Below the pieces are notes generated by a model, which made no database searches, was not told the DNA's origin, and was given only the letters and a program-made list of their open reading frames with translations. The translations under genes were made by a program, and so were the position numbers. This document shows positions 37,359 to 52,350 of a stretch of 64,000 bases of DNA, piece by piece; position 1 is the first letter of the stretch, and the number at the start of each line of letters is the position of its first letter. The DNA comes from Actinacidiphila cocklensis (GTDB lineage: Bacteria > Actinomycetota > Actinomycetes > Streptomycetales > Streptomycetaceae), in contig NZ_CAJSLV010000053.1 in assembly GCF_907177275.1 (NCBI RefSeq), forward strand, positions 1 through 64,000, in the 5' to 3' direction.

Positions 37359-40300
37359 TCAGGTGGCCCGCAGGCGCAAAGTGAGCCGGTCGTCAGTGAG
37401 GGTGGCGTCAAAATCGATGCCACTGTCGATGATCGTGAGGACATCGAGATACGCGTCAGCCGGGATGATAGCGACGGTGTCTTGGTTTACGTCGGCGGTC
37501 AGGGACGATGGCTGAGGGCCGGCGGCGAACCGCAACTGGGCGGGGAGGCCGTCGGCGACTGTTACCCCGGTGGTAGTGACACGCAAGGAGGTATGTCTGG
37601 CGTCGAGCAGGCTGCCAATCATGCTGGGGCGACGGTTGCGGACGTATTCCAGCAGGTCGTTGATCTCATAGGAGGTGGCGGAAAATTCCCGGCGCCAGCC
37701 GTCAATGTGAAGGTCGGTCAGCCAGGCGCGCAATTCGTCGACGCCGATGTTCCGATCGTTAGCCGAGTGGCCGATCTGGTGGGCGAGGCGGCGGGAGGTG
37801 ACGCCAGCGTTTAGCAGGGCCAAGGCCTGTGCGGTGTCGACGCCGTGGCGAAGGTGCCAGCCGACGGTGGCGGGCAGCCTGATCTCGGCCCGGGCTTGTT
37901 CCAGGCGGGTGTTGATGAGATTGGTCAGCGCACCGAGCGTCCAGGCAAGATAGTGTTCGAAGGTGACGCTGATGTTGCTAACCGTCTGTTCCAAAGCCCA
38001 TTCGCGAGACAGGTCTGGCAGCCAGGCGTCGGCGAGGTCAGGGATGGTCGTGCCACCGGTCCATCCGGTGATCGCCGCGGCGATGTCTACGTGGTGGCGA
38101 GTGCTGGTGGCGGTCCGCTTCTCGGTAAAAGTCCACGCCTCCTTGGCTTCCGGGAAAGTCAACAGAACCTCGTACACGCCGTATTGGGCGAAGAAGTCCA
38201 GTGTGCGCTGGAGTGGCCAATCGTCGGGAAACATGCCAGCCAGAACCTCCGCCCAGATGCCCTCATAAGCCGGCGCGGTGGCGGCGGGGTCTCGCAGGAG
38301 GGCTTGGGTGAGGGCTTCGGCGATCGAATCCAGGGTGCGGGCTGTACCGATGCTGGTGCCCGGATTGGTCCAGCGCCGCCGGGCGGCCGGTTCGATGGCC
38401 TCGTACTGTTCGGCGACCTTTGCTGCCAGATGCAGCCAGCGGTCTTTGAGATCGGGTGGCAGCTGCCGCATGGCCAGCAGCCGCTCGACGGCGGCCATCG
38501 GCTCGATGGCCGTGAGGGTAGGAACGCGGGAGAGCGCGTCTAGGGTGAACCACACGTAGGAGGCGAAGTTCGCAGCGTGGTTCTCCGCAAGCTTGAAGAT
38601 GGCATCGGCAGTGTCGGCAATCAGCTGTTCGGCGGCGGCGAGGTCGGTCAGGGCGTCGTCGGTGCCGAGCGCGGACAGCACCTGCAGGCGGTCCGCACTA
38701 GGTTCGAGCAGGGCAAAGTCCGGGGAGTGCGGGTCGCGGTGGCGAGTGAGCAGGATCCAGCCTTCGCTTTCACGTCCGGCCCGACCGGCACGGCCAACGG
38801 CGTTGAGTAGTTGCGCTGGTCCCATTTGCGGCTGGCCGGACCAGGTACGTGGCAGACCGTCATCGACCTCACTGTTGATGATGACGGAGCGCACCGGCAG
38901 ATTGACGCCGTCGGTGAGGGTGCTGGTACAGCACAGTGCTTTGAGCTGGTCACTGCGCAGGGCGTCTTCGACGGCGTGCAGGACTTCGGCGGGCAGTTGG
39001 GCGTGGTGGTAGGCGACACCGTGTCGGGCGCAGTCCACGATCGGGTGATCGGCGCCGAGAGTGTCGGCGAGGAAGTCGGCCAGCGGGGCCGCAGGCGGAA
39101 ATTCGGGCAGGAGGGTGGCGATGGCCTGGGCGGTGTTGCGCGTGGCAACACGGGAGGTGCAGACCACCAAGACACTGCCGGAGCGGGAAAGGTGGGCAGC
39201 CCCAAACGCGAACAGGGCGTAGTTCGTCACTGATGAGGCCTGCTTGCCGGTGGTGTCACCCGGGAACTTCTCACGGTAGATCCGCTGGCCAAGCGGCTGG
39301 TCACGCCGAGTGGCCATATGAAAGGTCTTGCCGGTCGAGGTCGGGCGGACGCTGATACGCAGGCCCATCGGCAGGACTGCCTCGGTGTTGCGGGTCCGGT
39401 TCGCGCGCGGCGGAAGTTCGGTCCGGGTGAGCTGGGCAGTGAACCTTATCGGGCTCAGTAGGCCGTGCAACCGACGGGGCCCGCGCCACTGTGAGGTGAA
39501 CACGACGTCCTCGGCAGGCTGGCTGGGATCGAGCCAGCCTGCGAGCTCAGCGTGGTTGCCGACTGCGGCAGACAGCAGTACCAGTCGAGGTGGGCTCGGA
39601 TGAGCCTGGCAGAAAGCCAGCAGTCCTTCGAGAAGGAAGCCGCGCTCGGTGTGCTGCATGTGATGAGCTTCGTCGACCACAATCAGGCCCACCTCCTCCA
39701 GCGCCGCATTCGCGTCCTGCCGCAGGGCGTGCATCAGCCGCTCGGGGGTGAGGATCTCCACGTCTGCGTTGCTGGCTGCGGCCTGGGCGCCGAGCGCGGG
39801 GAAGTCGGGCTGGTCGTCGCCGAGTTTACGGCCCAGCACCCGTAGCCGGGAGCGAAGGGCCTGGCGCATCTCCCGGCCCAGGCTGCGCAGCGGAGAGACA
39901 TACAGCACCCGACCGGCGCCAGCAGCCAGATGGGCGCAGATGATTAGCTGCGCCATGAGCGTTTTGCCGGCGCTGGTCGGCACGCTGATCAGCAGCCGGG
40001 AGGTGGCCGGGTCCAGCGGGCGGGACTGCCGGAGCAGTTCCCGCTGCGGTGGCCACAGCGTCATCACGGGAGGGTCGGACAGGGCGAAAGCGTGGGCGAG
40101 TGCTGGCGGGGTATCGGGAGGCAGCAGCCGTTGGAGACTGCCCTCGGCCAGGTCGTCCAGGAGTTCCAGCAGATGGGCAGCGACCCAGCGGGCGGAGCGG
40201 TCCGCCAGGCCAGCGCCGCCGGTGACCACGTCGGACAGATGGGCCCGGGCGGTCTCCAATGCTTCGGGGTCGGCACGAGTAAGAAACAGCGTCAGGTTGT

Positions 40301-41003
40301 GAACCGCCTCAATGACTGCCTGCGCCGGGCCGTACATGCTCTCTCGTAGATCGGTTACGCCGGCCAGTCGCTGCAGGTCGGCCAACTGCCGTCGCCACAC
40401 GCGCACCACCCGGGTCAGCCTGCGTCGCTGCAAGCCCAAGAATGCCACCCCGGCCTCAACGGCGAGCGTGTCCAGGTGAGAGGCCAAGGACTCCTCGGTG
40501 ACGAGGAGTGGGTCGACCTGTCGGAAGACCGCGGCAGCGTTCGGGTCCTGCTCGCATCGCCGGTAGCCCACCTGGGCGCCGAACGCCAGTGACAGACGGC
40601 GGGCTCGAACCTCATCGGGATCGTGCGGAGGGCCCGTGGTTTCCGTTTCCGTCGTCTCCGCCAGGTCTTCGTCTTCGCCGGTCCGGTCGTCCTCGTTCCC
40701 TTCGGTGGTGTCGAGACGGTTGCGGCTGTCGTCCAGAGCGAGTTCAAGGATGTGGGCACTGACGGCGAAGGCGTGTCGGCGCCGGACTGGGTCATACAGG
40801 TCGGTGCCCTCAAGTGCGGCAGCGATGCCGTGTAGGTACCAGGCAGTCCCTAGCAGTTGGTCCGGGACACCAGCCTCGGCCCTGATAGCACTGACCTCAA
40901 CCTCTGCAATCAGTGCGGCGAGTTCATCTGGGGACGGCAGCACGCCGGCCTCGTGCACACCGAGCGCGATCGCAAGGATTTCGGGGTTTATAGTGCGGTC
41001 CAC
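37359..41003 (-). CDS. SF2 DEAH helicase, HamB-like
   Basis: 1214 residues. Ski2/Brr2-type SF2 helicase core: motif I VPTSAGKT (341-348), motif Ia YVSPLRSLGREM, motif II VDEAHH (443-448), motif III SAA (478-480), a CTSTLTDGVNLPVRSVIINS segment (692-711) and motif VI NAVGRAGRAGRE (734-745). A 300-residue helical N-terminal region and a 450-residue C-terminal region flank it. The gene starts (GTG 41003) 16 nt inside the end of the nuclease-like gene. A nuclease-like protein plus long Ski2-like helicase is the Hachiman (HamA/HamB) layout, in which the helicase senses or translocates on DNA and releases the nuclease. Antiphage function is inferred. Confidence 0.82.
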   Translation of the reverse strand: MDRTINPEILAIALGVHEAGVLPSPDELAALIAEVEVSAIRAEAGVPDQLLGTAWYLHGIAAALEGTDLYDPVRRRHAFAVSAHILELALDDSRNRLDTTEGNEDDRTGEDEDLAETTETETTGPPHDPDEVRARRLSLAFGAQVGYRRCEQDPNAAAVFRQVDPLLVTEESLASHLDTLAVEAGVAFLGLQRRRLTRVVRVWRRQLADLQRLAGVTDLRESMYGPAQAVIEAVHNLTLFLTRADPEALETARAHLSDVVTGGAGLADRSARWVAAHLLELLDDLAEGSLQRLLPPDTPPALAHAFALSDPPVMTLWPPQRELLRQSRPLDPATSRLLISVPTSAGKTLMAQLIICAHLAAGAGRVLYVSPLRSLGREMRQALRSRLRVLGRKLGDDQPDFPALGAQAAASNADVEILTPERLMHALRQDANAALEEVGLIVVDEAHHMQHTERGFLLEGLLAFCQAHPSPPRLVLLSAAVGNHAELAGWLDPSQPAEDVVFTSQWRGPRRLHGLLSPIRFTAQLTRTELPPRANRTRNTEAVLPMGLRISVRPTSTGKTFHMATRRDQPLGQRIYREKFPGDTTGKQASSVTNYALFAFGAAHLSRSGSVLVVCTSRVATRNTAQAIATLLPEFPPAAPLADFLADTLGADHPIVDCARHGVAYHHAQLPAEVLHAVEDALRSDQLKALCCTSTLTDGVNLPVRSVIINSEVDDGLPRTWSGQPQMGPAQLLNAVGRAGRAGRESEGWILLTRHRDPHSPDFALLEPSADRLQVLSALGTDDALTDLAAAEQLIADTADAIFKLAENHAANFASYVWFTLDALSRVPTLTAIEPMAAVERLLAMRQLPPDLKDRWLHLAAKVAEQYEAIEPAARRRWTNPGTSIGTARTLDSIAEALTQALLRDPAATAPAYEGIWAEVLAGMFPDDWPLQRTLDFFAQYGVYEVLLTFPEAKEAWTFTEKRTATSTRHHVDIAAAITGWTGGTTIPDLADAWLPDLSREWALEQTVSNISVTFEHYLAWTLGALTNLINTRLEQARAEIRLPATVGWHLRHGVDTAQALALLNAGVTSRRLAHQIGHSANDRNIGVDELRAWLTDLHIDGWRREFSATSYEINDLLEYVRNRRPSMIGSLLDARHTSLRVTTTGVTVADGLPAQLRFAAGPQPSSLTADVNQDTVAIIPADAYLDVLTIIDSGIDFDATLTDDRLTLRLRAT

Positions 41004-41914
41004 ACCAGTTCCTGAACTTGCCGGGCGAAATCGGGGAAATCATCGATAGCCACGATCAGGCCTTCGAGTTGACCATCGTGCCGTAGGTGCGGAATGCGCT
41101 CGTGAGACGTTGTGAAGGCGCGCTGTTTGGGAGCCGCGGACGCGTTGGTGGCCACGCTCACCCCAGCACCGCTGCTGGGATGCCCCTCCAGCCACAGATC
41201 GGCCAGCTCGCTGACAAATGTACCGACGTCGCCAGAGACTTCCCGGTCTGCCCAGGCGATCTGTGAGATCACGTAGTTGATGCCGCTCTCCGATAGTTGA
41301 TCCCAGGCACCGCGGACCGTGTCGGTGACCGAATCATCCTTCCCGGTGTATTTCTTCATTTCCCAAAGTCGGAAGAGGAGTTCCGGTCCGGTGCCTGAAC
41401 GTGAGCGGTAGATCACCAGACCGTCTCCGCCGGAGTCGTTGACGTTGTCCTTGGGTGGAGTCAGGTACTCCCGTGCCCGTGCGGCCGTATCCGGGCTCTC
41501 CAACGCCAGTAGATACCAGAGCCATTCGCCTACATGACCAGGTACTCCGTGATGCGGCTTGGCCGCCGGATCGGTCTGTGGCTTGAATACCGGTTCCGCA
41601 AAAGCTGTCACCAACTGCCGAAGCTGCCCATTCAACGGAGCACCGCCCAGTGTGGCCGTCCTCCAGGAGTCGAATGCGTGTGTCACCTTGCCGCACCGCT
41701 GCCGCATCAACGCCTCAGCGATGATCCATGCCACCGCCCCGCGCTCGGAGTCCGTATGCCCACCGATAGACACTAGCTCCCAAGGGCATCGCTGGCCGAT
41801 TCCCCGGCTGGTCCGAGTCACAAACGCCGACACACGCCTTCCCCGGGCTGCCGCGAACTGCTCCGCTACCACTGCCGGAACCCGGCCTCGTGAAGCGGGA
41901 ACGGCTATCGACAT
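40988..41914 (-). CDS. HamA-like PD-(D/E)XK nuclease-type protein
   Basis: 308 residues. The active-site pattern of a PD-(D/E)XK nuclease is visible: Glu130 in GHVGEWLWYL, Asp164 in SGGDGLVIY and Glu185-x-Lys187 in FRLWEMKKY. That spacing and the GxxGE helix recall DUF1837/HamA of Hachiman, though overall similarity cannot be judged by eye. The N-terminal part (WELVSIGGHTDSERGAVAW) is unassigned. Overlaps the helicase start by 16 nt, so the two are expressed together. A different nuclease-helicase defence family is the main alternative. Confidence 0.65.
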   Translation of the reverse strand: MSIAVPASRGRVPAVVAEQFAAARGRRVSAFVTRTSRGIGQRCPWELVSIGGHTDSERGAVAWIIAEALMRQRCGKVTHAFDSWRTATLGGAPLNGQLRQLVTAFAEPVFKPQTDPAAKPHHGVPGHVGEWLWYLLALESPDTAARAREYLTPPKDNVNDSGGDGLVIYRSRSGTGPELLFRLWEMKKYTGKDDSVTDTVRGAWDQLSESGINYVISQIAWADREVSGDVGTFVSELADLWLEGHPSSGAGVSVATNASAAPKQRAFTTSHERIPHLRHDGQLEGLIVAIDDFPDFARQVQELVWTAL

Positions 41915-42066: not shown

Positions 42067-43071
42067 TCAACCTTCCACCGCCGGATCCGGTACGCAGGAG
42101 TGGAGGATGGCGGTGCGGGCCGCCCATGCCAGGGCACTTTGGGCGCGGAGGGAGAGGCCGAGGCGGTTCCAGTGGAAGATCACGTGGTAGCTGAGGACTT
42201 GGCGCAATCCCCGGTCCAGCGATCCAAGTTGTACTGCCTCTGCGAGTGAGCGGCCCGCTTGGTGGAAGGCAGCCACCCACTCGGTAACCCGGGTCAAGGG
42301 GCCGCCCGGGTTCAGCAGGGAGTTGGTGTCGGCCAGGAGCAGGAGCCGGATCTCCGCTGCTCTCGCATCCAGGGTTTCGCGGGGGATGTCCGTGATGCTG
42401 GAGCGGTGTTCGGCGGTGATGACGTGGTGCCAGACGTCGCCCTGTTCGTACCATTCGAGGCCGGCGGCGCGCATCAGGGTCGTGCACAGGAGGACGGACA
42501 GCTCGCGGGAGCCGAGGGGTAGGGCCTCGCGGAAGGGCAGTTGCTGGATCTCGCGGCTGTCGGCGACGAACAGCGCGTGGGCGCCCGTCATGCTCGCGGG
42601 GCCGCCGAAGGCGGCCGTCTCCGGTTCGTAGATGCCCGGCCACCATCGGTGAATGTGGCCTTCGGTGACGAGGTGGTCGAGGGCGTCTCCGATGGGCGTC
42701 ATGGTTTCGGACCGGGGGTGGCGGTGGAGGCGCAGGCGCCAGCAAGGGTGTTTCCGGGTGTACCACCAGCCGTCGAGGGTGCCGTCAGCTTCTCCTGCTC
42801 GTAGCAGCGGCAGTACGTGGGTAGTGAAGGTGCGGTCGGCGTTCGCCCAGTCGGTGAAGTGGATATAGGCGTGCCACCACTCGTGCTGTGCCGCATGGTC
42901 GGTGAGGGCTTCGCGGCCTGCTTGTTGAAAGGCCCGCAGGGCGTCGGAGAGGTTCACCGGGTCCATCCCAGCCTCCGCGGCGGCTTCGGCGAGCGGGCGG
43001 CCGGAGAGCACGGCGAGGACGGTGCGTTCGGTCGTGCCCGGTTCGGGCTGGATCAGTTGATCAGGAGACAT
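42067..43071 (-). CDS. SpaB_C-type lanthipeptide/thiopeptide biosynthesis protein
   Basis: 334 residues. The N-terminal 60 residues form a small helical part, then a SpaB_C (lantibiotic dehydratase elimination) domain: HEWWHAYIHFTDWANADRTF, WWYTRKHPCWRLRLHRHP, GIYEPETAAFGG and ALFVADSREI correspond to the conserved blocks of the glutamate-elimination domain. It is the stand-alone protein usually called thiopeptide-type bacteriocin biosynthesis protein and a regular member of FxLD clusters. ATG 43071 overlaps the LanC gene by 19 nt. Since the LanB here already carries a SpaB_C region, this is a second copy of that function. Confidence 0.85.
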   Translation of the reverse strand: MSPDQLIQPEPGTTERTVLAVLSGRPLAEAAAEAGMDPVNLSDALRAFQQAGREALTDHAAQHEWWHAYIHFTDWANADRTFTTHVLPLLRAGEADGTLDGWWYTRKHPCWRLRLHRHPRSETMTPIGDALDHLVTEGHIHRWWPGIYEPETAAFGGPASMTGAHALFVADSREIQQLPFREALPLGSRELSVLLCTTLMRAAGLEWYEQGDVWHHVITAEHRSSITDIPRETLDARAAEIRLLLLADTNSLLNPGGPLTRVTEWVAAFHQAGRSLAEAVQLGSLDRGLRQVLSYHVIFHWNRLGLSLRAQSALAWAARTAILHSCVPDPAVEG

Positions 43072-44285
43072 GCGTCCCATCCGGTGCTCGGGGGCTGCTG
43101 GGTGGCGAGAGTGGACAGGGCGAGCGCGGTACCTGCGGCGCCGTTCAGCAACCCGGGCGCCGCTGTGGGCTCGTACCGGGTGTGGCCGAGGAGAGCGTCC
43201 CCCAGCGTGGGAAGTAGTCCGCGCAGGCGGGGGTCGCTGGCGTCTGCGGCGGCGCGAGCGGCGATCTGGTAGATGCCCGCCCAGCCGTGGCACAGGCCGG
43301 TGTCCGTGATTTTGGCCAGTTGCGCGGGGTCGCTCAGGGCGAGGTACAGGGCGTCTTCGTAAAGCGCTTGGAGGTCGGTGTCGCGCAGTGCGATGCCGGC
43401 GAGTTGGCCCGCCCGCGCGATACCGGGGGTTCCGTAGCACCAGCTCGGCCTCGCGGCGTGGGGGCGGTGCGGGTGGCGCTGTTCGAGGTCTCGGCGGGAG
43501 AGGTGTTCGGGCCACCATGGGCCGGTCTCGGTGTCCCGGCGCCAGGTGTCGAGGTGCTCGCAGATGGTCCGGATCGCATCTCGGTGGCCGTTGACTTCGA
43601 TGCCGTGTCGTAGCGCCTGGGCGAGCAGGAGGAGTGGGCCGGTGATGCCGTGGGCGGCTCCGAGGTTGGCGTGGCCGCCGGGGAAGCGTGGGGAGTGGCC
43701 TCGTCGCGGATCGTGCGCGACCCACCAGCCGGGCAGGCCGCCAGCGCCCGGCGCGAGTGGGCGTGTCAGCGCGACGAGGTAGCGGAGGATGCGGTCGAGG
43801 GCTACGTCTTCGGGGCTGGTGCGCAGCAGGTAGGCGCCAATGCCGGTCAGGCCGTAGAAGAGGTCGTACTCAGCGAAGGTCGGCAGGTCGCCACGGTGGA
43901 TGCGGGCCCGGGCGGCGTCGATACGGCGGTGGGCGAGCGTCAGGATGTGCTGGTGCACGGTGTGCCGGGCTTGGCCGTAGAGGTGGTCGAACTCGGGCGG
44001 TGGGGTGCTGAGGAGGAAGCCGATGGCCGGTACGCCGAGGAAGAGGCCGGTGGTGTCGGCGGCGCTGACCTGGCCGGAGACTGCGGCGCTGATCCAGCGG
44101 TGGGCGGTGCTCCAGGGCTGTGCGTGGCTGCGTGCGGCCTCGATGTGGAGCAGGGCGGTGCCGGCTACGCCGTCGGCGAGGGACTGTACGGCCCAGGGCT
44201 CGGCCGGGTGAGGGGGCGCGGGCTCAGTCAAGTGGCGGGCGACGTGGAGCACCGTCTCGGCGGCGCTGGTGGTAACCGCGGTCAT
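43053..44285 (-). CDS. LanC-like lanthionine cyclase
   Basis: 410 residues. Double alpha-barrel LanC family; zinc ligands are seen in PSWCYGTPG (Cys) and GLCHGWAG (Cys-His), together with GLPGWWVAHD and GGHANLGAAHGITGPLLLLA. It should add Cys thiols to dehydrated Ser/Thr of the precursor to make lanthionine rings. The ATG at 44285 overlaps the LanB stop (ATGA), and its own 3' end overlaps the SpaB_C gene, so the three are tightly coupled. Confidence 0.9.
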   Translation of the reverse strand: MTAVTTSAAETVLHVARHLTEPAPPHPAEPWAVQSLADGVAGTALLHIEAARSHAQPWSTAHRWISAAVSGQVSAADTTGLFLGVPAIGFLLSTPPPEFDHLYGQARHTVHQHILTLAHRRIDAARARIHRGDLPTFAEYDLFYGLTGIGAYLLRTSPEDVALDRILRYLVALTRPLAPGAGGLPGWWVAHDPRRGHSPRFPGGHANLGAAHGITGPLLLLAQALRHGIEVNGHRDAIRTICEHLDTWRRDTETGPWWPEHLSRRDLEQRHPHRPHAARPSWCYGTPGIARAGQLAGIALRDTDLQALYEDALYLALSDPAQLAKITDTGLCHGWAGIYQIAARAAADASDPRLRGLLPTLGDALLGHTRYEPTAAPGLLNGAAGTALALSTLATQQPPSTGWDACLLIN

Positions 44286-47200
44286 CGGACTGCCTTCTGC
44301 TGGCGCAGGGCCGCCGTGCGAGCGAGGCGGAGGGTGACGGCCTCGGCGGTGGGGTCTACGACCAGCGCACGGACGTGGTGCTGGTGTAGCAGCGACCGGG
44401 CGGCCCGGAGCGGATCGGCGCCCGCCAGGCGGAGTCGGTAGGCGTCGAGGGCGGCGGCGCGGGCCTTCCAAGCCTGGGTGACGGCGTCATCCTCGGGCAG
44501 TACGCCCAAGGCGGCCCGGCCGCCAGGGGCGGTGAGGTCGAGTACCTGTTCGCGTAGGTGGGGGTCCAGGCGGCCGGTGACCTGCGGCAACCGCTGGATG
44601 AGCCAGTCCGTGCCTTCCGCCTCGGAGGGGGCGAGGTGCTGGACAAGGTCGAGGGCGCTGGCGGCTGCGAGGGCCTGCGGGGTGACGGTGTCGTTCTGGC
44701 CGGTGAACCGAATCTGTGCGACGGCGGCGGCGGAGTCGGCGGCGAAGACCTGATGTGCGGCGTCCATCGCGTCGCCGTGCCCGAACCGGCCGGTCTGCGG
44801 CCGATAGTCGGCCAGCGTCAGGCCAGCTGCAAGGCCAGTGCGGTGGAGAGTGCCGGTCCAGTCGTGGACGCACTCGGCCGCCACAGCGTAGGTGCCGGGC
44901 GCCAGGTGGAACACGAGGTCGAGATACTGGTCGGCGTCCGGCCGGGCGGTCTCACGGTGGCGGGTGAACCACCACAGCGAGGCGGTATCGCCGAGCGCGG
45001 CGAGCAGGGTGGGAAGGTGCTGGGTCAGGATCTCGTCGTAGCGGGCGGGGTGGGCGTGCAGGCGTGCGTACAGCACGTTGCCGGCGCCGGACAGGTGAAG
45101 TCGCGGCGGCTCGGCGCCATACGCGAGTGAACCGTGAGGGCCGTCCTCGGCGGTCGGGGCCGGCCCGGTGCGGTGGAGGGCGATCCATACTTCGTGGGCG
45201 CGGCCGATCCACCCGTGTGCGTCGGCGGCGGGCGCCTCGCGTAATTCCAGGCGCCGGTTCTGGTCGAGCTGGGTTCGCAGCAGGCGGCGGTGGACCGGAT
45301 GTCTCAGGTCCACCGGGAGGCGCTGGTCGTGCTCGATCATGCTCACCGCGTCGGGCACGCGCAGCCGGGTACGCCAGGTGTCGAACGCCCCATCCCACGA
45401 ATCCTGCTCGGAAGCGCGGCCGGGCAGCTCGTCGGCGGTGAGCAGCCAGCGTGCGGGGGCCAGGATGGTGCGGCGGTAGCGCACGCGGGGCAGGTAGGGC
45501 AGGTGGGCTGCGGCTCCGAAGTCGAACGGTTTGTAGGCGGCGTAGCGGGCGCCGGCGACCTCGGCGAGGAATCGGGCCGGCGCCGGAGTCTGTGTGGCGG
45601 CTTCCAGAGCGTGTAGGACTCGCACGTCCACGCGGTGCCCGGTGGAGCGCCGGATTAGGTAGAAGTGGCGGGCGTCGGCGGTGACGGCGATGTCGTCGAG
45701 GTCGATTGTCTTGCCGTCGGCGGCCGGGTGCTCGCCTACGGCGATGACGTGGGGCAGCAGGCGGGGTGTGCGGGTGACGTTCTCGGTGCGGCGTTTGCGG
45801 GGCGGGAAGCTGAGTTGGGCGGTGAGCGCGTCGGGGTCGGTGTGGTAGCCGTCAGCCAGGACTTCATGGTGGTCGGGCGCCAGCAGGTGGGCGAACCGGC
45901 CGGCCATGCTGCTGCCCGGCCGGGGCACGGCGGTGATCGCCACCTGGAAGGCGCCGCGGGTAAGGGCCGTGGTGGAGGGTGCGTGGATCTCGAAGGCGGC
46001 TTCGACGCGAGGGACGAAGTGCGGCTCGGTGGCGGCGGCGTCCGCGAGAGTGTCGATCACCTTGTCGGTGAGGACGAGTTCGCTTCCGCCGTCCATCAGG
46101 GCGTCTTGCAGCAGCGCGAGCAGGACCTGGTCTCGATCGGTGAGGAGCTTGGGCGGGCGACCGCGTTCCGAGCCGAGGTATCCGGCCGGCAGCCCGAGCC
46201 CGCTGTCGGAGATCAGCTCCATGACGGGCACGTGCGCGCCGACGCCGTACCGGGCGCGGAAGCGGCGGTGGTAGTCGCGCCAGTGCTGGTAGCCGTAGGG
46301 CTGCGAGGTGGTCCGGTACAGCGCCGTGACGGCGGCCTGCACCTCATCCAGCACGGCCGCGGGTATCTGCGCCTCGCAGTCGAGCCCGGTGTCGATGATC
46401 AAGGGCGTCGGAGTCGCCGGGGAGATCACGCACATCTTCGGGAAGAGGCGGTCCAGCACGGCGGTGGCCGAGGCCGGCTGGTGGGCGGCGATCTCGTCGC
46501 GTACGTCGAACAGCGCGGTGACCAGGTCGTGGAGATCGGGGATGGTGTCCGCGTCGTGCCGTTCCAGCTCGGCGCACAGGTGGCCGAAGGCGTCCATGGT
46601 GGTCATCGGCGCCCACAGACTCGACAGGAGGATCTGCTGGCCGACCAGGTCGCGCAGGAGCCGGTCGATCTGGCCGACTGTGGCCTGCGGGAAGAGCGTG
46701 TGCAGGTGGGAGCGCAGGTCGTCGTAGGTGATCGGCTCGCGGGCGGCGGCCACTGCTGCGGCCACCGGCCGGGCGTTGTGGACGGATATCTCGATCGGGG
46801 CCATGAGCTGGGCGTAGGCGTCGGCCGGGGCTCCGACGGCGACGAGGCGGTTACCGCGCTCGCGGGCGGTGTTGTTGGCCACCAGCGGCAAACGACGCAG
46901 CAGTTCCGGGCTGGAGTGGAGGCGTCCGATGATGTCGGCGACCCATTCGGCGTCGGCACGCAGCAGCACATGATGCCTCTCGCGCCACTGAATACGAGCG
47001 GTGTCCCCGACGGCCACCGCGGCGGTGCCGGCGAACAGGCCGAGAGGGGTGGAGCGGTTCTGCCACCGCAGCAGGTAGGAGATCGTGGACAGCGCCGTAC
47101 GCCGTACCTGCCGGGGACGAGTCTCCTGTCCGCCGGCTACGGCTTCGACGGCTGCCGAGAGCACGGGGGTTGCCGCGCGCAGGGCGTCGCGGAACGCCTC

Positions 47201-47350
47201 CTGCTGCCAAATGCGGTCCAGCCACATGCGGGTTTCTGCCGCGTCGTCCAGGTCGAGCATGCGGGGCAGGTCAGCGACGCCGGGGCTGGTGCTGGCTCGC
47301 AGTAACGCGGGTCCCTGCCACCGGTAAGTGACGGCCGCTCGGGGGGCCAT
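44282..47350 (-). CDS. LanB-type lanthipeptide dehydratase
   Basis: 1022 residues. The N-terminal glutamylation domain is typical of class I LanB (RTALSTISYLLRWQNRSTPL, GLFAGTAAVAVGD, PVMELISDSGLGLPAGYL, PRGA-like TRGAFQVAITAV); the C-terminal part (about 730-1000) is SpaB_C-like (AHEVWIALHRTG, LYARLHAHPARYDEI, DYRPQTGRFG, QVFAADSAAAVAQI). It uses glutamyl-tRNA to activate and dehydrate Ser/Thr of the precursor. ATG at 47350. A longer open frame upstream runs over the precursor gene and is not real. Operon partner of LanC. Confidence 0.9.
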   Translation of the reverse strand: MAPRAAVTYRWQGPALLRASTSPGVADLPRMLDLDDAAETRMWLDRIWQQEAFRDALRAATPVLSAAVEAVAGGQETRPRQVRRTALSTISYLLRWQNRSTPLGLFAGTAAVAVGDTARIQWRERHHVLLRADAEWVADIIGRLHSSPELLRRLPLVANNTARERGNRLVAVGAPADAYAQLMAPIEISVHNARPVAAAVAAAREPITYDDLRSHLHTLFPQATVGQIDRLLRDLVGQQILLSSLWAPMTTMDAFGHLCAELERHDADTIPDLHDLVTALFDVRDEIAAHQPASATAVLDRLFPKMCVISPATPTPLIIDTGLDCEAQIPAAVLDEVQAAVTALYRTTSQPYGYQHWRDYHRRFRARYGVGAHVPVMELISDSGLGLPAGYLGSERGRPPKLLTDRDQVLLALLQDALMDGGSELVLTDKVIDTLADAAATEPHFVPRVEAAFEIHAPSTTALTRGAFQVAITAVPRPGSSMAGRFAHLLAPDHHEVLADGYHTDPDALTAQLSFPPRKRRTENVTRTPRLLPHVIAVGEHPAADGKTIDLDDIAVTADARHFYLIRRSTGHRVDVRVLHALEAATQTPAPARFLAEVAGARYAAYKPFDFGAAAHLPYLPRVRYRRTILAPARWLLTADELPGRASEQDSWDGAFDTWRTRLRVPDAVSMIEHDQRLPVDLRHPVHRRLLRTQLDQNRRLELREAPAADAHGWIGRAHEVWIALHRTGPAPTAEDGPHGSLAYGAEPPRLHLSGAGNVLYARLHAHPARYDEILTQHLPTLLAALGDTASLWWFTRHRETARPDADQYLDLVFHLAPGTYAVAAECVHDWTGTLHRTGLAAGLTLADYRPQTGRFGHGDAMDAAHQVFAADSAAAVAQIRFTGQNDTVTPQALAAASALDLVQHLAPSEAEGTDWLIQRLPQVTGRLDPHLREQVLDLTAPGGRAALGVLPEDDAVTQAWKARAAALDAYRLRLAGADPLRAARSLLHQHHVRALVVDPTAEAVTLRLARTAALRQQKAVR

Positions 47351-47439
47351 GAGGTGTTCCCTTCCGGTACGGGCGCGCGGGCGGGGGCCGGTGGGCCGGG
47401 CGTGCGTCCGGCCCACCGGGTGAGGGGAGGTGCCTGGGA

Positions 47440-47625
47440 TCAGGCGGGGTCCTCCACGAAGGAGCTGCACGCGGAGGCGCCGCCTGAGCAGGTGCTGCCG
47501 CAGCCGTCGCCGGTGGCGCACTGGAGCTTGCCGAACGGGTGCGCGGCGAGGACGACCCTTACGTCGAGGGGCGCGAAGTCGTCGTCCAGGAGTGCCTGCG
47601 CAGGGGTCAGGGTGGCGTTGGTCAT
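47440..47625 (-). CDS. FxLD-family class I lanthipeptide precursor
   Basis: 61 residues. The leader (1-28 or so) carries DDDFAPLDVRVV, a version of the FxLD motif with one extra residue between F and LD. The core has four Cys (36, 42, 46, 53) and seven Ser/Thr available for rings: CATGDGCGSTCSGGASACSS. The TGDGC segment with Asp40 matches the conserved Asp that PIMT-like enzymes of these clusters modify. GGAAGG lies upstream of the ATG. It sits between the methyltransferase and LanB genes in the same direction. No protease gene is in the cluster, so leader removal must be by an outside enzyme. Confidence 0.9.
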   Translation of the reverse strand: MTNATLTPAQALLDDDFAPLDVRVVLAAHPFGKLQCATGDGCGSTCSGGASACSSFVEDPA

Positions 47626-47675
47626 GGTGGTGCCCTTCCTTCCGTTGGGGATGGTGCAGGAACCCTGGGCCGCAG

Positions 47676-48908
47676 CTACTGCCGGGCGGGCCAGGAGAGC
47701 GAGATCCGGCTGTGGACCTTGTCGATGACCCGGTCGCCGGGGATCTGGTCATCGGGGGTGCCGGCCGGATAGACCCGGATGACCGGGCTGGGGCCGCCGC
47801 GGTATTTGCCGGCCCAGTCGCGCAGGTGCGCGGCGATGGTCTCGGCGAACGCGGCGGCGTCGGGGCCGAGGGCGTGCACGCCGAACTCGACGTGCTTGTC
47901 GTCCTCACTGCGGCGGGTGGTGAGGTAGGCGAAGGTGCGGCCCTGGTCGTCCACGGCAGCCAGGGCGAAGCTCTTGTTGGCCGGGGCGACGACGCCGGAG
48001 TCAAGGTCGGGGTCCACAGCCATCACGCAGAAGCCCGGCAGCCTGATGGCCAGGTGCATCTGGAGGGTGTCCAGCAGCTCTCTGACGCCGATCGTCACCC
48101 CGGTCCACAGCTCGACCCGCGGGAAAGTGACGGCGTTGTCGAGCAGGCTCGGATCGGAGGGCAGACCGTCGTCGAACCGCAGCCCGATCTCGGGGGTGCC
48201 GTTGACCAGCAGCAAATCCTCTTTGTGGGCGGTGGAGCCCTGCATCGGAACGAAGCCGCAGATTCTCGCGGACTCGCTCTCCATGTGGTCGCCGACGCGG
48301 ACGAAGGCGATGGACCGGGTCAGGCCGCGCATTCGCAACGGCACCACCAGGTGACCGCCGGGCTTGAGCTGATCGGTCCAGGCCGACGGGATGTCCCAGG
48401 CGCCGACGGTCACCAGCACGACATCGACCTTCCCCAACCCGGGGATCGGTTCGGCGGCGTCGGCCGTAAGGACGGTGACGCGGCCGTAACCGTGCTCGTC
48501 CAGCAGTCGGCTCGCGCGGTCGGTGACGACGGGGTCGATGTCCACCGTAGTGACCTCGCCGTCCTCACCGACGAGTTCGGCGAGGTAGGCCGCGTTCAGC
48601 CCGCCAGAACCGATCTCCAGCACCCGCATTCCGGGGCGGACCTTGGCCTGCTCCAGCATCAGTGCCTGGATCTGCGGCGCCGACACGGAGCTGAGCTGGA
48701 CGCCGTACTGGTCGGTCTTGGTGATCACCGCCGCGTAGGGCTCGTACGCCTTCTCCAGGGACGCCTCAGGAGTGAACTCGTGGCGGGGAATCGCCCGCAT
48801 CACGGCTTCGACCTCGGGCGAGGTGATCCAGCCCTCGGCACGGAGGGTGTCCACGACGTTGTTCCGCAGGCGGGTGGCCTCGTCGGGCTCGACGGTCATA
48901 TCGGTCAT
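47676..48908 (-). CDS. PIMT-like methyltransferase, FxLD system
   Basis: 410 residues. Residues 1-215 resemble protein L-isoaspartate O-methyltransferase: VMRAIPRHEFTPEASLEKAY, QLSSVSAPQIQALMLEQ, SAM motif VRPGMRVLEIGSGGLNAAY with DIDP, and LVVPLRMRG. A C-terminal 190-residue extension is typical of the FxLD-associated group. Such enzymes methylate an Asp in the cyclised peptide, leading through a succinimide to isoaspartate or a stable imide. I use the ATG at 48908; 48899 is possible. Upstream of the precursor gene in the same operon. Confidence 0.9.
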   Translation of the reverse strand: MTDMTVEPDEATRLRNNVVDTLRAEGWITSPEVEAVMRAIPRHEFTPEASLEKAYEPYAAVITKTDQYGVQLSSVSAPQIQALMLEQAKVRPGMRVLEIGSGGLNAAYLAELVGEDGEVTTVDIDPVVTDRASRLLDEHGYGRVTVLTADAAEPIPGLGKVDVVLVTVGAWDIPSAWTDQLKPGGHLVVPLRMRGLTRSIAFVRVGDHMESESARICGFVPMQGSTAHKEDLLLVNGTPEIGLRFDDGLPSDPSLLDNAVTFPRVELWTGVTIGVRELLDTLQMHLAIRLPGFCVMAVDPDLDSGVVAPANKSFALAAVDDQGRTFAYLTTRRSEDDKHVEFGVHALGPDAAAFAETIAAHLRDWAGKYRGGPSPVIRVYPAGTPDDQIPGDRVIDKVHSRISLSWPARQ

Positions 48909-48951
48909 CAGGGGAAGTTCCTTCACTCTCGCGTGTACGTCGGGTGCTCGG

Positions 48952-49551
48952 TCAACCGCGGACAGTGCCAATCGGCGCGGAGGCTATCGACGCGCCGGCA
49001 GGCTCATCGACGACGTGGTTCGCGCGTCCGACCTGGCGAGCGGTCCAGTCATTGCGGGCTGCTTCGAGGATCGGAGTGACGTCCTTTTCAATGTGGTCGG
49101 CTTGCGCGCGGAGTTGAGCTGTGAGCCTGGTGAGGTCCTCGGGCGTGAGGTGGTTCAACCACAAATCGTTCACCACGAGGACGTTGGCGTACGGAGTCCG
49201 CTCCTGCAGGTCCTCTCTGTACGGGTAGCAGGCGATGTGGCCGTCGAAGAGGCTCTCTTCCACGGCCAGGCTGGCGCCGTCAGCGTGAGCGGGGTTGTGG
49301 ATGCGCATCCTCTGCCCGTCGAAGGGTCGCCAGTCCGCGAGGTCGATCAGCTTGACGGAGAGCTCTTCCAGCGGCACGTCCGATTCGCTCGGTTCCTCGT
49401 CCGCCCAGGGCGGCAGGTACCCGGTGAGGGTGACTCTGCCCGTCGTGCTGATGGACCAGGTGCCGCCCCGCGAGGTGGCCCCTGCTGCGGACGGTTGCTG
49501 TGCGAGTGGTACTCCGTTGACCGGTTCCAATACCGCCGAGGTGGTGGTCAA
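48952..49551 (-). CDS. DUF6907-like protein
   Basis: 199 residues. Central beta-rich domain: TWSISTTGRVTLTGYLPPWA, then VKLIDLADWRPFDGQRMRIH, HADGASLAVEESLFDGHIAC and a C-terminal helix. It resembles DUF6907, common near actinobacterial RiPP clusters and plasmid genes; no activity known. The TTG at 49551 is taken as start because AAGGAG lies 8 nt before it and no ATG/GTG fits. Upstream of the methyltransferase in the same direction. Confidence 0.7.
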   Translation of the reverse strand: MTTTSAVLEPVNGVPLAQQPSAAGATSRGGTWSISTTGRVTLTGYLPPWADEEPSESDVPLEELSVKLIDLADWRPFDGQRMRIHNPAHADGASLAVEESLFDGHIACYPYREDLQERTPYANVLVVNDLWLNHLTPEDLTRLTAQLRAQADHIEKDVTPILEAARNDWTARQVGRANHVVDEPAGASIASAPIGTVRG

Positions 49552-49580
49552 GACTCGATCTCCTTCGCTGAGGTGGGAAG

Positions 49581-50003
49581 TCAAGAGGACGCGACGGGCA
49601 TAGCGGTGAGTCGGTGGCTGTGGACACCCGGGTGGAGGGCGAACTCGCAGCAGGCATCGCGTGAATCGGGATCGATGAATGAGCAATCCGGTCGGATGTC
49701 CAGCGCTGCAACAGGAGTGCCGCCGGCCCAGCGAGTCCAGATGGCACCGGTGGCCACGCCGTCGAGGTCCAGTACGAGGGCGAAATGGTCCCCATCGCCG
49801 TGAACTTGAAGGTGGCACCACAAGTCCCTCTCCACATCTGCCTCGTCCGCCGATCCGTACGGTGCCGCGATGCGAAGAGCCTCCTGGACGAGGTACTCCG
49901 GGAGCCGGGCGGGCCGACCACAGACGGGGAACAGCGTCTTCGCGTTCGTCATTGCGGGCTGCTCTCGGCGTGGATACGAGGCGGGATTGGCCTGCACCGT
50001 CAT
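49581..50003 (-). CDS. Hypothetical protein of the lanthipeptide region
   Basis: 140 residues. Contains YLVQEALRIAAPYGSADEAD, DGDHFALVLDLDGVATGAIW and DPDSRDACCEFALHPGVHSH; family not recognised. ATG at 50003 shares its A with the last base of the preceding stop codon (TGATG), so it is coupled to the ATP-binding protein gene. An internal ATG at 49952 is an alternative. No signal peptide or membrane segment. Confidence 0.6.
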   Translation of the reverse strand: MTVQANPASYPRREQPAMTNAKTLFPVCGRPARLPEYLVQEALRIAAPYGSADEADVERDLWCHLQVHGDGDHFALVLDLDGVATGAIWTRWAGGTPVAALDIRPDCSFIDPDSRDACCEFALHPGVHSHRLTAMPVASS

Positions 50004-50488
50004 CAGCGCGCCTCCGCGACAAGCAACGTGCACCACGTGGTCGTGCCGTCTGCGCTCACTCCCCAGTCGTCGGCTATCGCGGCGACGAGGAAGAGGCCAC
50101 GGCCGGTTTCGCTCGCGTCATCGACGACGCTCAAGCGCGGGCGGCGGCTGGAACCGTCGTTCACCGCGATCAACACCCCCTGCTGGGTGATCACGAGGCG
50201 GAACGCGACCTCGCCGTCCTCGCCGTACCGCAGGGCGTTGGTGACCAGTTCGCTGACTAGCAGTTGGACATCGTCCATGAGCGGGTCCAGGCCCCAGGCG
50301 CGCAACTTGGCGGCACTGATGCGGCGAAGGCGTCCAACCCACTGGCCGTCGACGTCCCTTTCGAGAGCGCCGTACGTCGCGGATCCGACGGAGACCCGCA
50401 CCGCGAATTCGTCGCAGACCGGCTCGGCGAGCCTCGGGATGGGACCCGTAGGCGTGGTCTCCGTCGCGGCGTACGCGGTCTTGATCAT
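50003..50488 (-). CDS. ATP-binding protein (RsbW-like HATPase)
   Basis: 161 residues. A single GHKL ATPase domain: N-box VSELVTNALRYGEDG, G1 box LIAVNDGSSRRPRL and G2 DDASETGRGLFLVAAIADDW. Small proteins of this type act as anti-sigma kinases or regulatory ATPases and are frequent beside XRE/DUF397 genes in Streptomyces. ATG at 50488 overlaps the small upstream gene. Transcribed toward the lanthipeptide genes. Confidence 0.88.
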   Translation of the reverse strand: MIKTAYAATETTPTGPIPRLAEPVCDEFAVRVSVGSATYGALERDVDGQWVGRLRRISAAKLRAWGLDPLMDDVQLLVSELVTNALRYGEDGEVAFRLVITQQGVLIAVNDGSSRRPRLSVVDDASETGRGLFLVAAIADDWGVSADGTTTWCTLLVAEAR

Positions 50489-50800: not shown

Positions 50801-50863
50801 GTGAGTAGCGTTACGCTCACGCCGCTTCGCCACCATGACCGTTGGGGATTACCGAGGCGGTAA
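50801..50863. promoter_or_regulatory. Candidate operators upstream of XRE gene
   Basis: AGCGTTACGCT (50807-50817, exact arms) inside the larger imperfect dyad GTGAG...CTCAC (50801-50820), and TTACCGAGGCGGTAA (50849-50863, 6-bp arms). Both lie in the divergent region between the small gene and the XRE regulator. Confidence 0.5.
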
Positions 50864-50916
50864 CACCGCTGTCCCAGCCTGATAGCCGGGATGCCGCACA
50901 CCTCCGGAGGCGGCTC

Positions 50917-52350
50917 GTGAACGCCACACCGATTTCCACGGACGTCCTGACCAGGACCGATATGCGTCAGGCGTTGGCCGAACACGACTTCGCCGAGGCA
51001 TTCAGGCTTCTGAAGAAGCATGGTGGCCTGTCCCAGAACCGCATCGCATTGGCGTGCGGATTAACCCCCGGCAAGGTGTCGACCATCATGAACGGGCAGA
51101 CGCGCGTCGTCTCGTACGACGTGCTGTGCCGCATCGCCGACGGCCTGCACATCCCCGGCAAGCTCATCGGCCTCGCCACCCGTCCCTGGGAAACGGAGGA
51201 GGCCGAACCGGCCCGCCCCGAAACTCCCGAGGTGACAGCCCGCATGGACACTCCGTGGCAGAACGGCGCAACTGTCGAGCTGGCGGACCAACTCACCCGC
51301 GTCGACCTCACCATGGACCGACGCGCACTCGCCCGAGCGATCGCAGCCACGGTGATGACCGGACCGCTTCTGCTCGACTCGCTGGAAGGCTGGATGCTGC
51401 CCGGGGAGACAGGATCCCGCCGAAACCGCCCCGGCCGGTTGGGGATGCGCGACGTCGAGCAGCTTGAGGAGACAGCAAAGGCGTTCCGCACCTGGAACCA
51501 CAAGTACGGCGGTGGACTGCGGCGCCGGGCGGTCCTTGGCCAGCTGCAGGAGGTGACCGCGCTCCTCCACGAACACCAAGCACCACTCGTTGAGCAGCGG
51601 TTGTACGCGGTGCTGGCGCAGCTGGCCGGTACCGCCGCTGGCATGGCGTGGGATGCGGGGCTGCAACGACGAGCGCAGGACTACTACCGGCTCAGCTTGC
51701 GATCGGCCCACGCCGCAGGCGACCGTCTCTGGGGCGCCAACACCTTGGCCGGCATGGCTCGCCAGTTGCTCTACGCGGCCCGCCCGACAGACGCCCTGGA
51801 ACTCGTCCGCTTCGCGCAGGAGGGTGTCCGTGACGAGGCCGGACCGCGACTCCGTGCGATGCTCCACACGCGAGAGGCATGGGCCTTGGCCGCACTCGGC
51901 AGAACCGCAGCGTTCAACCGGGCCACCGAACAAGCCCGCCACGCACTTGCCGATGGCGGTCTCGATGAGCCCTACTGGATTGGGTACTTCGACGAAGCGG
52001 AACTGGCAGGCGTCACCGGCGGTCGCTACCTGGAACTCGCCCGGCGCGATCCTCGGCTCCACGCCGGACATGCCGAGGAACAGATCCGTACTGCACTCAC
52101 CCGTCGAGGACCGGAGGCCGGCAGATCACACGCGTTGGACCGCCTTGGTCTGGCCGAGGTCTACTTCCTCTCCGGCGATCTCGCCGCGGCCGTCGCCGAG
52201 ACCCACGCAGCCTGCGATGTCGCCGAGCGTGTCCATTCCGGACGCGTGCGAGAAGGCATGGCCGAGCTGTACGCCTACACGGTGGGTCACAGAACTTCAG
52301 CTCCCGTACGGGAAGCGCGCGCTAGGCTCCGCGAGCAACTCTCCGACTGA
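50917..52350 (+). CDS. XRE-family regulator with TPR-like repeats
   Basis: 477 residues. N-terminal helix-turn-helix (about 20-85: FAEAFRLLKKHGGLSQNRIA, GLTPGKVSTIMNGQTRVVSY) and a long helical C-terminal part with TPR-like units (AQDYYRLSLRSAHAAGDRLW, DALELVRFAQEGV, LGLAEVYFLSGDLAAAVAET). GTG at 50917 has GGAGG 6 nt upstream. Such regulators usually sit beside RiPP or DUF397 genes in Streptomyces, and the lanthipeptide operon is divergent, so it is the likely cluster regulator. The SLOG-like gene follows 11 nt later. Confidence 0.88.
   Translation: MNATPISTDVLTRTDMRQALAEHDFAEAFRLLKKHGGLSQNRIALACGLTPGKVSTIMNGQTRVVSYDVLCRIADGLHIPGKLIGLATRPWETEEAEPARPETPEVTARMDTPWQNGATVELADQLTRVDLTMDRRALARAIAATVMTGPLLLDSLEGWMLPGETGSRRNRPGRLGMRDVEQLEETAKAFRTWNHKYGGGLRRRAVLGQLQEVTALLHEHQAPLVEQRLYAVLAQLAGTAAGMAWDAGLQRRAQDYYRLSLRSAHAAGDRLWGANTLAGMARQLLYAARPTDALELVRFAQEGVRDEAGPRLRAMLHTREAWALAALGRTAAFNRATEQARHALADGGLDEPYWIGYFDEAELAGVTGGRYLELARRDPRLHAGHAEEQIRTALTRRGPEAGRSHALDRLGLAEVYFLSGDLAAAVAETHAACDVAERVHSGRVREGMAELYAYTVGHRTSAPVREARARLREQLSD

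Follow-up and report, generated by a model that had tools for sequence, protein, structure and literature searches.

The analysed stretch of DNA, a window of 64,000 nucleotides from Actinacidiphila cocklensis, carries five collinear genes on the minus strand at positions 42067-48908, in the order methyltransferase, precursor, LanB, LanC and separate SpaB_C protein. Presence and order of these genes were claimed in a preliminary description of the window and were borne out by matches to curated models. The first gene (47676..48908) encodes a LanSA-type (PIMT-like) O-methyltransferase of 410 aa with a PCMT domain, which was the sole match over the cut-off of TIGR04364 (methyltran_FxLD) in this genome (558.5 bits, cut-off of 320, 394/394 positions). 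The precursor gene (47440..47625) encodes 61 aa with the leader motif FAPLD and a core with TGDGC (TIGR04363, 55.6 bits, cut-off of 30). The full-length LanB of 1022 aa (44282..47350) matched Lant_dehydr_N with 689 bits and, as described before, possesses a SpaB_C region of its own (Lant_dehydr_C, 96 bits). The LanC cyclase of 410 aa (43053..44285; LANC_like, 141 bits) shows the zinc-ligand motifs W-C-Y-G and C-H-G, and the separate SpaB_C protein of 334 aa (42067..43071) matched Lant_dehydr_C with 95.5 bits and TIGR03891 with 205 bits. LanB and LanC genes overlap by 4 bp, and LanC and SpaB_C genes by 19 bp, a pattern as in a coupled operon. Since the precursor and the methyltransferase exceeded the curated cut-offs and the LanB and LanC genes were present, the assignment to the FxLD class I lanthipeptides, with a predicted product of this type, is supported.

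The preliminary description had extended the cluster to 49551, which is too far, and the cluster ends at 48908. Positions 48952-49554 hold a DUF6907 gene; its product and the next small ORF were discarded as cluster members because homologues lay near only 6/83 and 3/83, respectively, of the related clusters of the LanB clade introduced below. Further along, the cluster is flanked by genes for an RsbW-like ATPase (50003-50488, minus strand), homologues of which occurred near 24/83 clade clusters, and an NsdA-family regulator (50842-52350, plus strand), with a 95% identical NsdA-like protein in the related locus L038. On the other side, the cluster is adjoined by the gene for a DEAD-box helicase of 1214 aa (37359-41003, minus strand), which matched the defence-helicase models PDC-M23B (225 bits) and HamB (194 bits). 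It is overlapped by the gene for a protein of 308 aa that matched none of the families (40988-41914, minus strand), and the two possibly form a Hachiman-like or PDC-M23 defence pair.

Precursor core and predicted Asp methylation

In the precursor, FAPLD occupies residues 17-21, and the core contains, as had been stated, four Cys (36, 42, 46 and 53) and Asp40 in TGDGC (codon at 47506..47508, minus strand). Asp40 did not vary among the 55 distinct precursors of the clade, nor among the sampled precursors of other FxLD types, and T38, C42, G43, C46 and C53 were likewise invariant across the 55. Position 45 was T in 51 and S in 4 of them, position 51 (Ser in the window) was S or T in all, and position 55 was S in 46 and T in 9. 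The reading of FAPLD as one residue longer than FxLD was correct, but its oddness was not: the extra Pro is a subclade form common to 23 of the 55 distinct precursors, so that it was rejected as a peculiarity of the window cluster.

By analogy to CoiA1 and OlvA, the likely rings are T38-C42 plus the overlapping pair T45-C53 and C46-S55. C36 was conserved in 50/55 precursors. Between T7 and C36 of the window precursor, no Ser or Thr is available as its ring partner, a role filled by an upstream Ser in OlvA. Position 55 aligns with CoiA1 Thr57, a mapping inferred from spacing, and this site is Thr in 31/32 coi-type cores. CoiSA is thought to turn CoiA1 Thr57 into (E)-Dhb, the added syn-lyase in coi thereby setting the geometry of one Thr. 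At a Ser, syn- and anti-elimination yield the same Dha, and it is therefore unlikely that the syn-lyase was kept for the geometry of this site. The methyltransferase resembles OlvSA and CoiSA, and its expected target is Asp40. Homology and the invariance of this residue agree with the earlier proposal of an enzyme type whose methylation of Asp leads to aspartimide or isoAsp, here as a prediction.

Lyase-site residues of LanB and the separate SpaB_C protein

NisB positions were mapped by a profile of 20 LanBs aligned to NisB. NisB R784, R786, E823, R826 and H961 correspond to D811, V813, Q852, R855 and H989 of the window LanB. Thus, three of the five lyase residues of the canonical bifunctional LanBs (NisB, MibB and CoiB) are lost, namely both Arg of the Glu gamma-carboxylate site and the E823 equivalent, and the two residues acting at the alpha-carbon (R855 and H989) are kept. 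In the MadB paper, the equivalents of R786, R826 and H961 are given as essential elimination residues. D811-L812-V813 (44912..44920, minus strand) lies at NisB R784-L-R786 in the profile alignment, and no conserved replacement residues were found at positions 811 and 813 in the clade. An alignment slip was rejected as the cause, since the two groups of LanBs can both be aligned at the neighbouring D-Q-H/Y-L anchor; in 78 of the 83 LanBs without both Arg, no Arg or Lys occurs anywhere in the Q-H-L-x-L-x stretch. An insertion loop at about residues 801-804 (44938..44949, minus strand) carries R803 in the window and has Arg in 64/83 and His in 7/83 clade LanBs; it is a possible stand-in for the lost Arg pair. 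The lyase domain as such (residues 745-1022; 44285..45118, minus strand) is predicted to be well folded (pLDDT of 94.5; TM of 0.80 to MibB). The equivalents of all six glutamylation residues (NisB R83, R87, T89, D121, D299 and R464) are present, and those of R83, R87, T89 and R464 were conserved in 147/147 LanBs.

The preliminary description had assumed that the SpaB_C region of LanB works. The absence of the Arg pair and of the Glu823 equivalent argues against this, and the separate protein may therefore be the main or only lyase. By architecture, the window LanB is not a split LanB as known for SapT, pinensin and thiopeptides, as it carries a full-length Lant_dehydr_C domain, although it may work like one.

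Syn-glutamyl lyases were defined from work on coi and SapT, in which syn-elimination of glutamyl-Thr was established as the job of such second SpaB_C proteins (PMC9486935, PMC9011353, PMC9890492). In their signature, both gamma-carboxylate Arg are kept, Lys stands at the canonical Tyr position, NisB Arg826 is replaced by a hydrophobic residue, and the aligned catalytic His is absent. SptBb makes (E)-Dhb, and the variant K46A of CoiSA(ED) leaves glutamylated intermediates. The separate protein of the window shows the motifs W-W-Y-T-R-K107-H-P-C-W-R112-L-R114 and Y-E-P-E-T-A-A154-F-G-G, i.e., the residues of the SptBb/CoiSA type with Lys at the Tyr position, the Arg pair and Ala at Arg826. K107 (codon at 42751..42753, minus strand), at the position of a Lys with a published role in these lyases, was invariant together with R112, R114 and A154 in an alignment of 48 sequences, and Lys/Arg/Arg/Ala were found in 105/108 stand-alone proteins readable at these sites. 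The AlphaFold model (pLDDT of 92.3) matched the lyase domains of MibB, MadB and NisB as well as pyridine synthases by fold, whereas a phmmer search against PDB sequences gave no match. Since proteins with the full signature are syn-lyases experimentally, the separate protein is predicted to be a syn-glutamyl lyase making (E)-Dhb from Thr. The earlier suggestion that it has a different job from LanB is thus upheld in outline, but not as an open question, as that job is already published. Residues 1-62 of the protein form a predicted helical N-terminal extension with a weak HTH_28 match just below the cut-off. This extension, mostly absent from fused lyases, might bind the leader peptide or LanB.

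Distribution and evolution of LanBs lacking the Arg pair

Relatives were collected from 249 genomes of the same family, wider fetches and a scan of named genomes. They were found in Streptomyces, Actinacidiphila, Actinomadura, Amycolatopsis, Saccharothrix, Lentzea, Frankia, Nonomuraea, Catenulispora, Nocardiopsis and others. The order methyltransferase-precursor-LanB-LanC-separate lyase was identical in most of them, and this operon is present in dozens of Actinomycetota. As this five-gene order recurs in several families at 45-80% LanB identity, the arrangement is not due to chance. In the non-redundant set of 147 LanBs, 83 lacked both Arg, and 82 of these also lacked E823; the share of 83/147 is not a natural frequency, because the counts come from sampled genomes and the scan of named genomes was seeded with clade LanBs. 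The other 64 LanBs had R784 in 64, R786 in 62 and E823 in 63 cases. LanBs without the pair occurred in Streptomycetaceae, Pseudonocardiaceae, Streptosporangiaceae, Thermomonosporaceae, Frankiaceae, Nocardiopsidaceae, Catenulisporaceae and Micromonosporaceae.

A tree was calculated from the glutamylation domain alone (103 rows and 668 columns, none of them from the lyase domain) by a quick search without bootstrap, and here the 49 Arg-less representatives formed one clade (SH-aLRT of 100) explained by a single change. The separate lyase accompanied every Arg-less LanB in intact clusters. Three clade LanBs without it were found (L117, L146 and L152), but were set aside since LanC was broken or missing in each; two of them, L117 and L146, are located close to a contig end, and assembly gaps may explain missing genes in some clusters. 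LanBs that keep the Arg pair were accompanied by a fused syn-lyase (coi-like), a stand-alone one or none (olv-like). Because the Arg-less LanBs go back to a single change, the double Arg loss and its co-occurrence with the separate lyase count as one evolutionary event.

More independent evidence is provided by losses within the clade. Nine clade LanBs (L040, L044, L112, L119, L122, L125, L126, L134 and L151), representing about six lineages, later lost the equivalent of R826 and/or H961, four of them both, and the residues of the separate lyase were unchanged beside all nine. Such losses were found in 0/62 Arg-keeping LanBs (Fisher p = 0.010, not corrected for relatedness). In L044, L119, L125 and L126, all five lyase residues are lost, with LanB still full-length and the clusters complete. 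About 90% of the clade, the window LanB among them, have kept the R826 and H961 equivalents, and this suggests that the LanB lyase domain is still under some constraint. At N-domain identities of at least 0.5, the ratio of lyase to N-domain divergence was about 1.1 in the clade as compared to 0.75-0.82 in other LanBs; in the most distant bin, at an identity of 0.4, both groups diverged alike.

Some loci departed from the common arrangement. In L098 and L118, a stretch of 19 kb holds both a cluster of the clade type and a fused lyase-methyltransferase of the coi type, so that the two FxLD types can be neighbours. Decayed clusters comprised L053, where only the C-terminal part of LanB is left beside LanC and the lyase, and precursor and methyltransferase are missing; L197 and L199, with the lyase kept beside LanC fragments; and L051, with LanB split over two frames. 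L173 and L182 encode LanB relatives in which the R786 and H961 equivalents are missing and R784 is kept; no LanC, methyltransferase or lyase was found nearby, and another LanB-dependent pathway may be what they serve in. Descent of the SapT-type split transferase from this LanB clade was not supported: blastp with LanB queries gave no match in the four loci L208-L211, which carry a more distant SpaB_C protein with Leu at the Arg826 position.

Predicted pathway, alternatives and relation to known systems

From the observed gene content, conservation, residue losses and phylogenetic pattern, and from the predicted folds, we infer all catalytic steps given here as well as the ring pattern and stereochemistry. 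The N-terminal domain of LanB would load glutamate from Glu-tRNA onto Ser and Thr of the core. Its C-terminal lyase domain, unable to bind the glutamyl gamma-carboxylate by the known means, would be a largely disabled relic or scaffold, and the separate syn-glutamyl lyase would take off most or all glutamates. By this route, Thr38 and Thr45 would become (E)-Dhb and be closed by LanC to D-allo-L-MeLan, and a Ser such as Ser55 would be converted via Dha to Lan. The methyltransferase would then methylate Asp40 within the first ring, leading to aspartimide and, on hydrolysis, mainly isoAsp. The product would belong to the FxLD family of class I lanthipeptides and contain aspartimide/isoAsp. For the window, we consider this pathway, with LanB as glutamyl transferase, elimination mostly or entirely by the separate syn-lyase, D-allo-L-MeLan at Thr38 and Thr45 and methylated Asp40, to be somewhat better than an even bet. 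For the whole Arg-less clade, the chances seem evenly balanced that it consists of hidden split dehydratases, with a dead LanB lyase domain and all eliminations done by the separate syn-lyase. CoiC is known to have failed at cyclisation with all three Dhb in the (E) form, so that the window LanC would have to differ from it, as SptC does. Lyases were also reported to tolerate other leaving groups, which counts against a disabled LanB lyase domain.

The LanB lyase domain may instead have been retooled, such that R803 and adjacent residues of the new loop hold the glutamate. It would then carry out anti-elimination at some residues, with syn-elimination by the separate lyase at others, and the product would mix (Z)- and (E)-derived rings. 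Coi offers a precedent for such a division, R855 and H989 are kept in a domain predicted to be well folded, and the loop carries Arg or, less often, His in most of the clade; but the R784, R786 and E823 equivalents were all lost together, the loop Arg is not universal, and the four LanBs without all five residues sit in complete clusters, so that we regard this possibility as rather doubtful. That the domain handles a different acyl group or another peptide reaction rather than glutamate elimination would fit the loss of exactly those residues that read the glutamyl carboxylate, the retention of the alpha-carbon residues, and a fold common to pyridine synthases. It is nonetheless improbable, since the separate lyase keeps its Arg pair and glutamate is thus still the leaving group, conserved substitutes are lacking at 811 and 813, and several lineages lost the remaining catalytic residues. 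Non-elimination chemistry by the separate SpaB_C protein, e.g., a pyridine-synthase-like cycloaddition, was raised as a possibility in PMC7268733, and the fold does resemble TbtD/PbtD. This appears very improbable here, given the full syn-lyase signature, the experimental lyase activity of CoiSA(ED) and SptBb with the same signature, and the fact that the clade would otherwise have no recognisable lyase.

Among known systems, coi of Streptomyces coelicolor A3(2) (PMC9486935, PMC9011353) shares with the window an FxLD-type precursor, a full-length LanB, LanC, an Asp O-methyltransferase and an extra syn-glutamyl lyase. However, the syn-lyase is fused to the methyltransferase in coi and encoded by a separate gene in the window, CoiB keeps the canonical lyase residues whereas in the window LanB both E823 and the Arg pair are gone, and the CoiA1 Thr57 site is Ser in the window precursor. 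The olv system of Streptomyces olivaceus (OlvA/B/C/SA) is alike in the Asp in T-x-D-G-C, the kind of methyltransferase, the Cys before the first ring and the Ser near the C-terminus, but has no second lyase, and the olv-like LanBs sampled keep HLRLR. In SapT biosynthesis (spt; PMC9011353, PMC9890492), glutamylation and syn-elimination are likewise found on two polypeptides, with D-allo-L-MeLan as the expected outcome here, too; unlike the window LanB, SptBa/SptBb are a true split with no leftover lyase domain, and the enzymes described include no Asp methyltransferase. Stand-alone syn-lyases beside full-length LanBs, the same arrangement as in the window, were noted earlier by Sarksian and van der Donk 2022. 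There, all full-length LanBs were predicted to perform anti-elimination, in contrast to what the lack of the Glu-binding Arg pair suggests for the clade LanBs.

Thus, cluster type, methyltransferase chemistry and syn-lyases are already known, and the new part appears to be the loss of substrate-binding residues from the LanB lyase site across one clade. A literature search in the main texts of freely readable papers turned up no account of LanBs forming a clade devoid of the Glu-binding Arg pair, which is to be read as 'not found' and not as 'shown new'. The clade can serve to test the importance of individual lyase residues, and it provides a natural example of how a domain loses its function once this has passed to a related protein. 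It also offers a sequence rule by which presence or absence of HLRLR in LanB would predict the stereochemistry of the product. If the Arg-less LanBs are hidden split dehydratases, every Thr-derived ring would be formed from (E)-Dhb and have the rare D-allo-L configuration, combined with isoAsp, and D-allo-L-MeLan peptides would occur far more widely than is apparent from SapT and coi.
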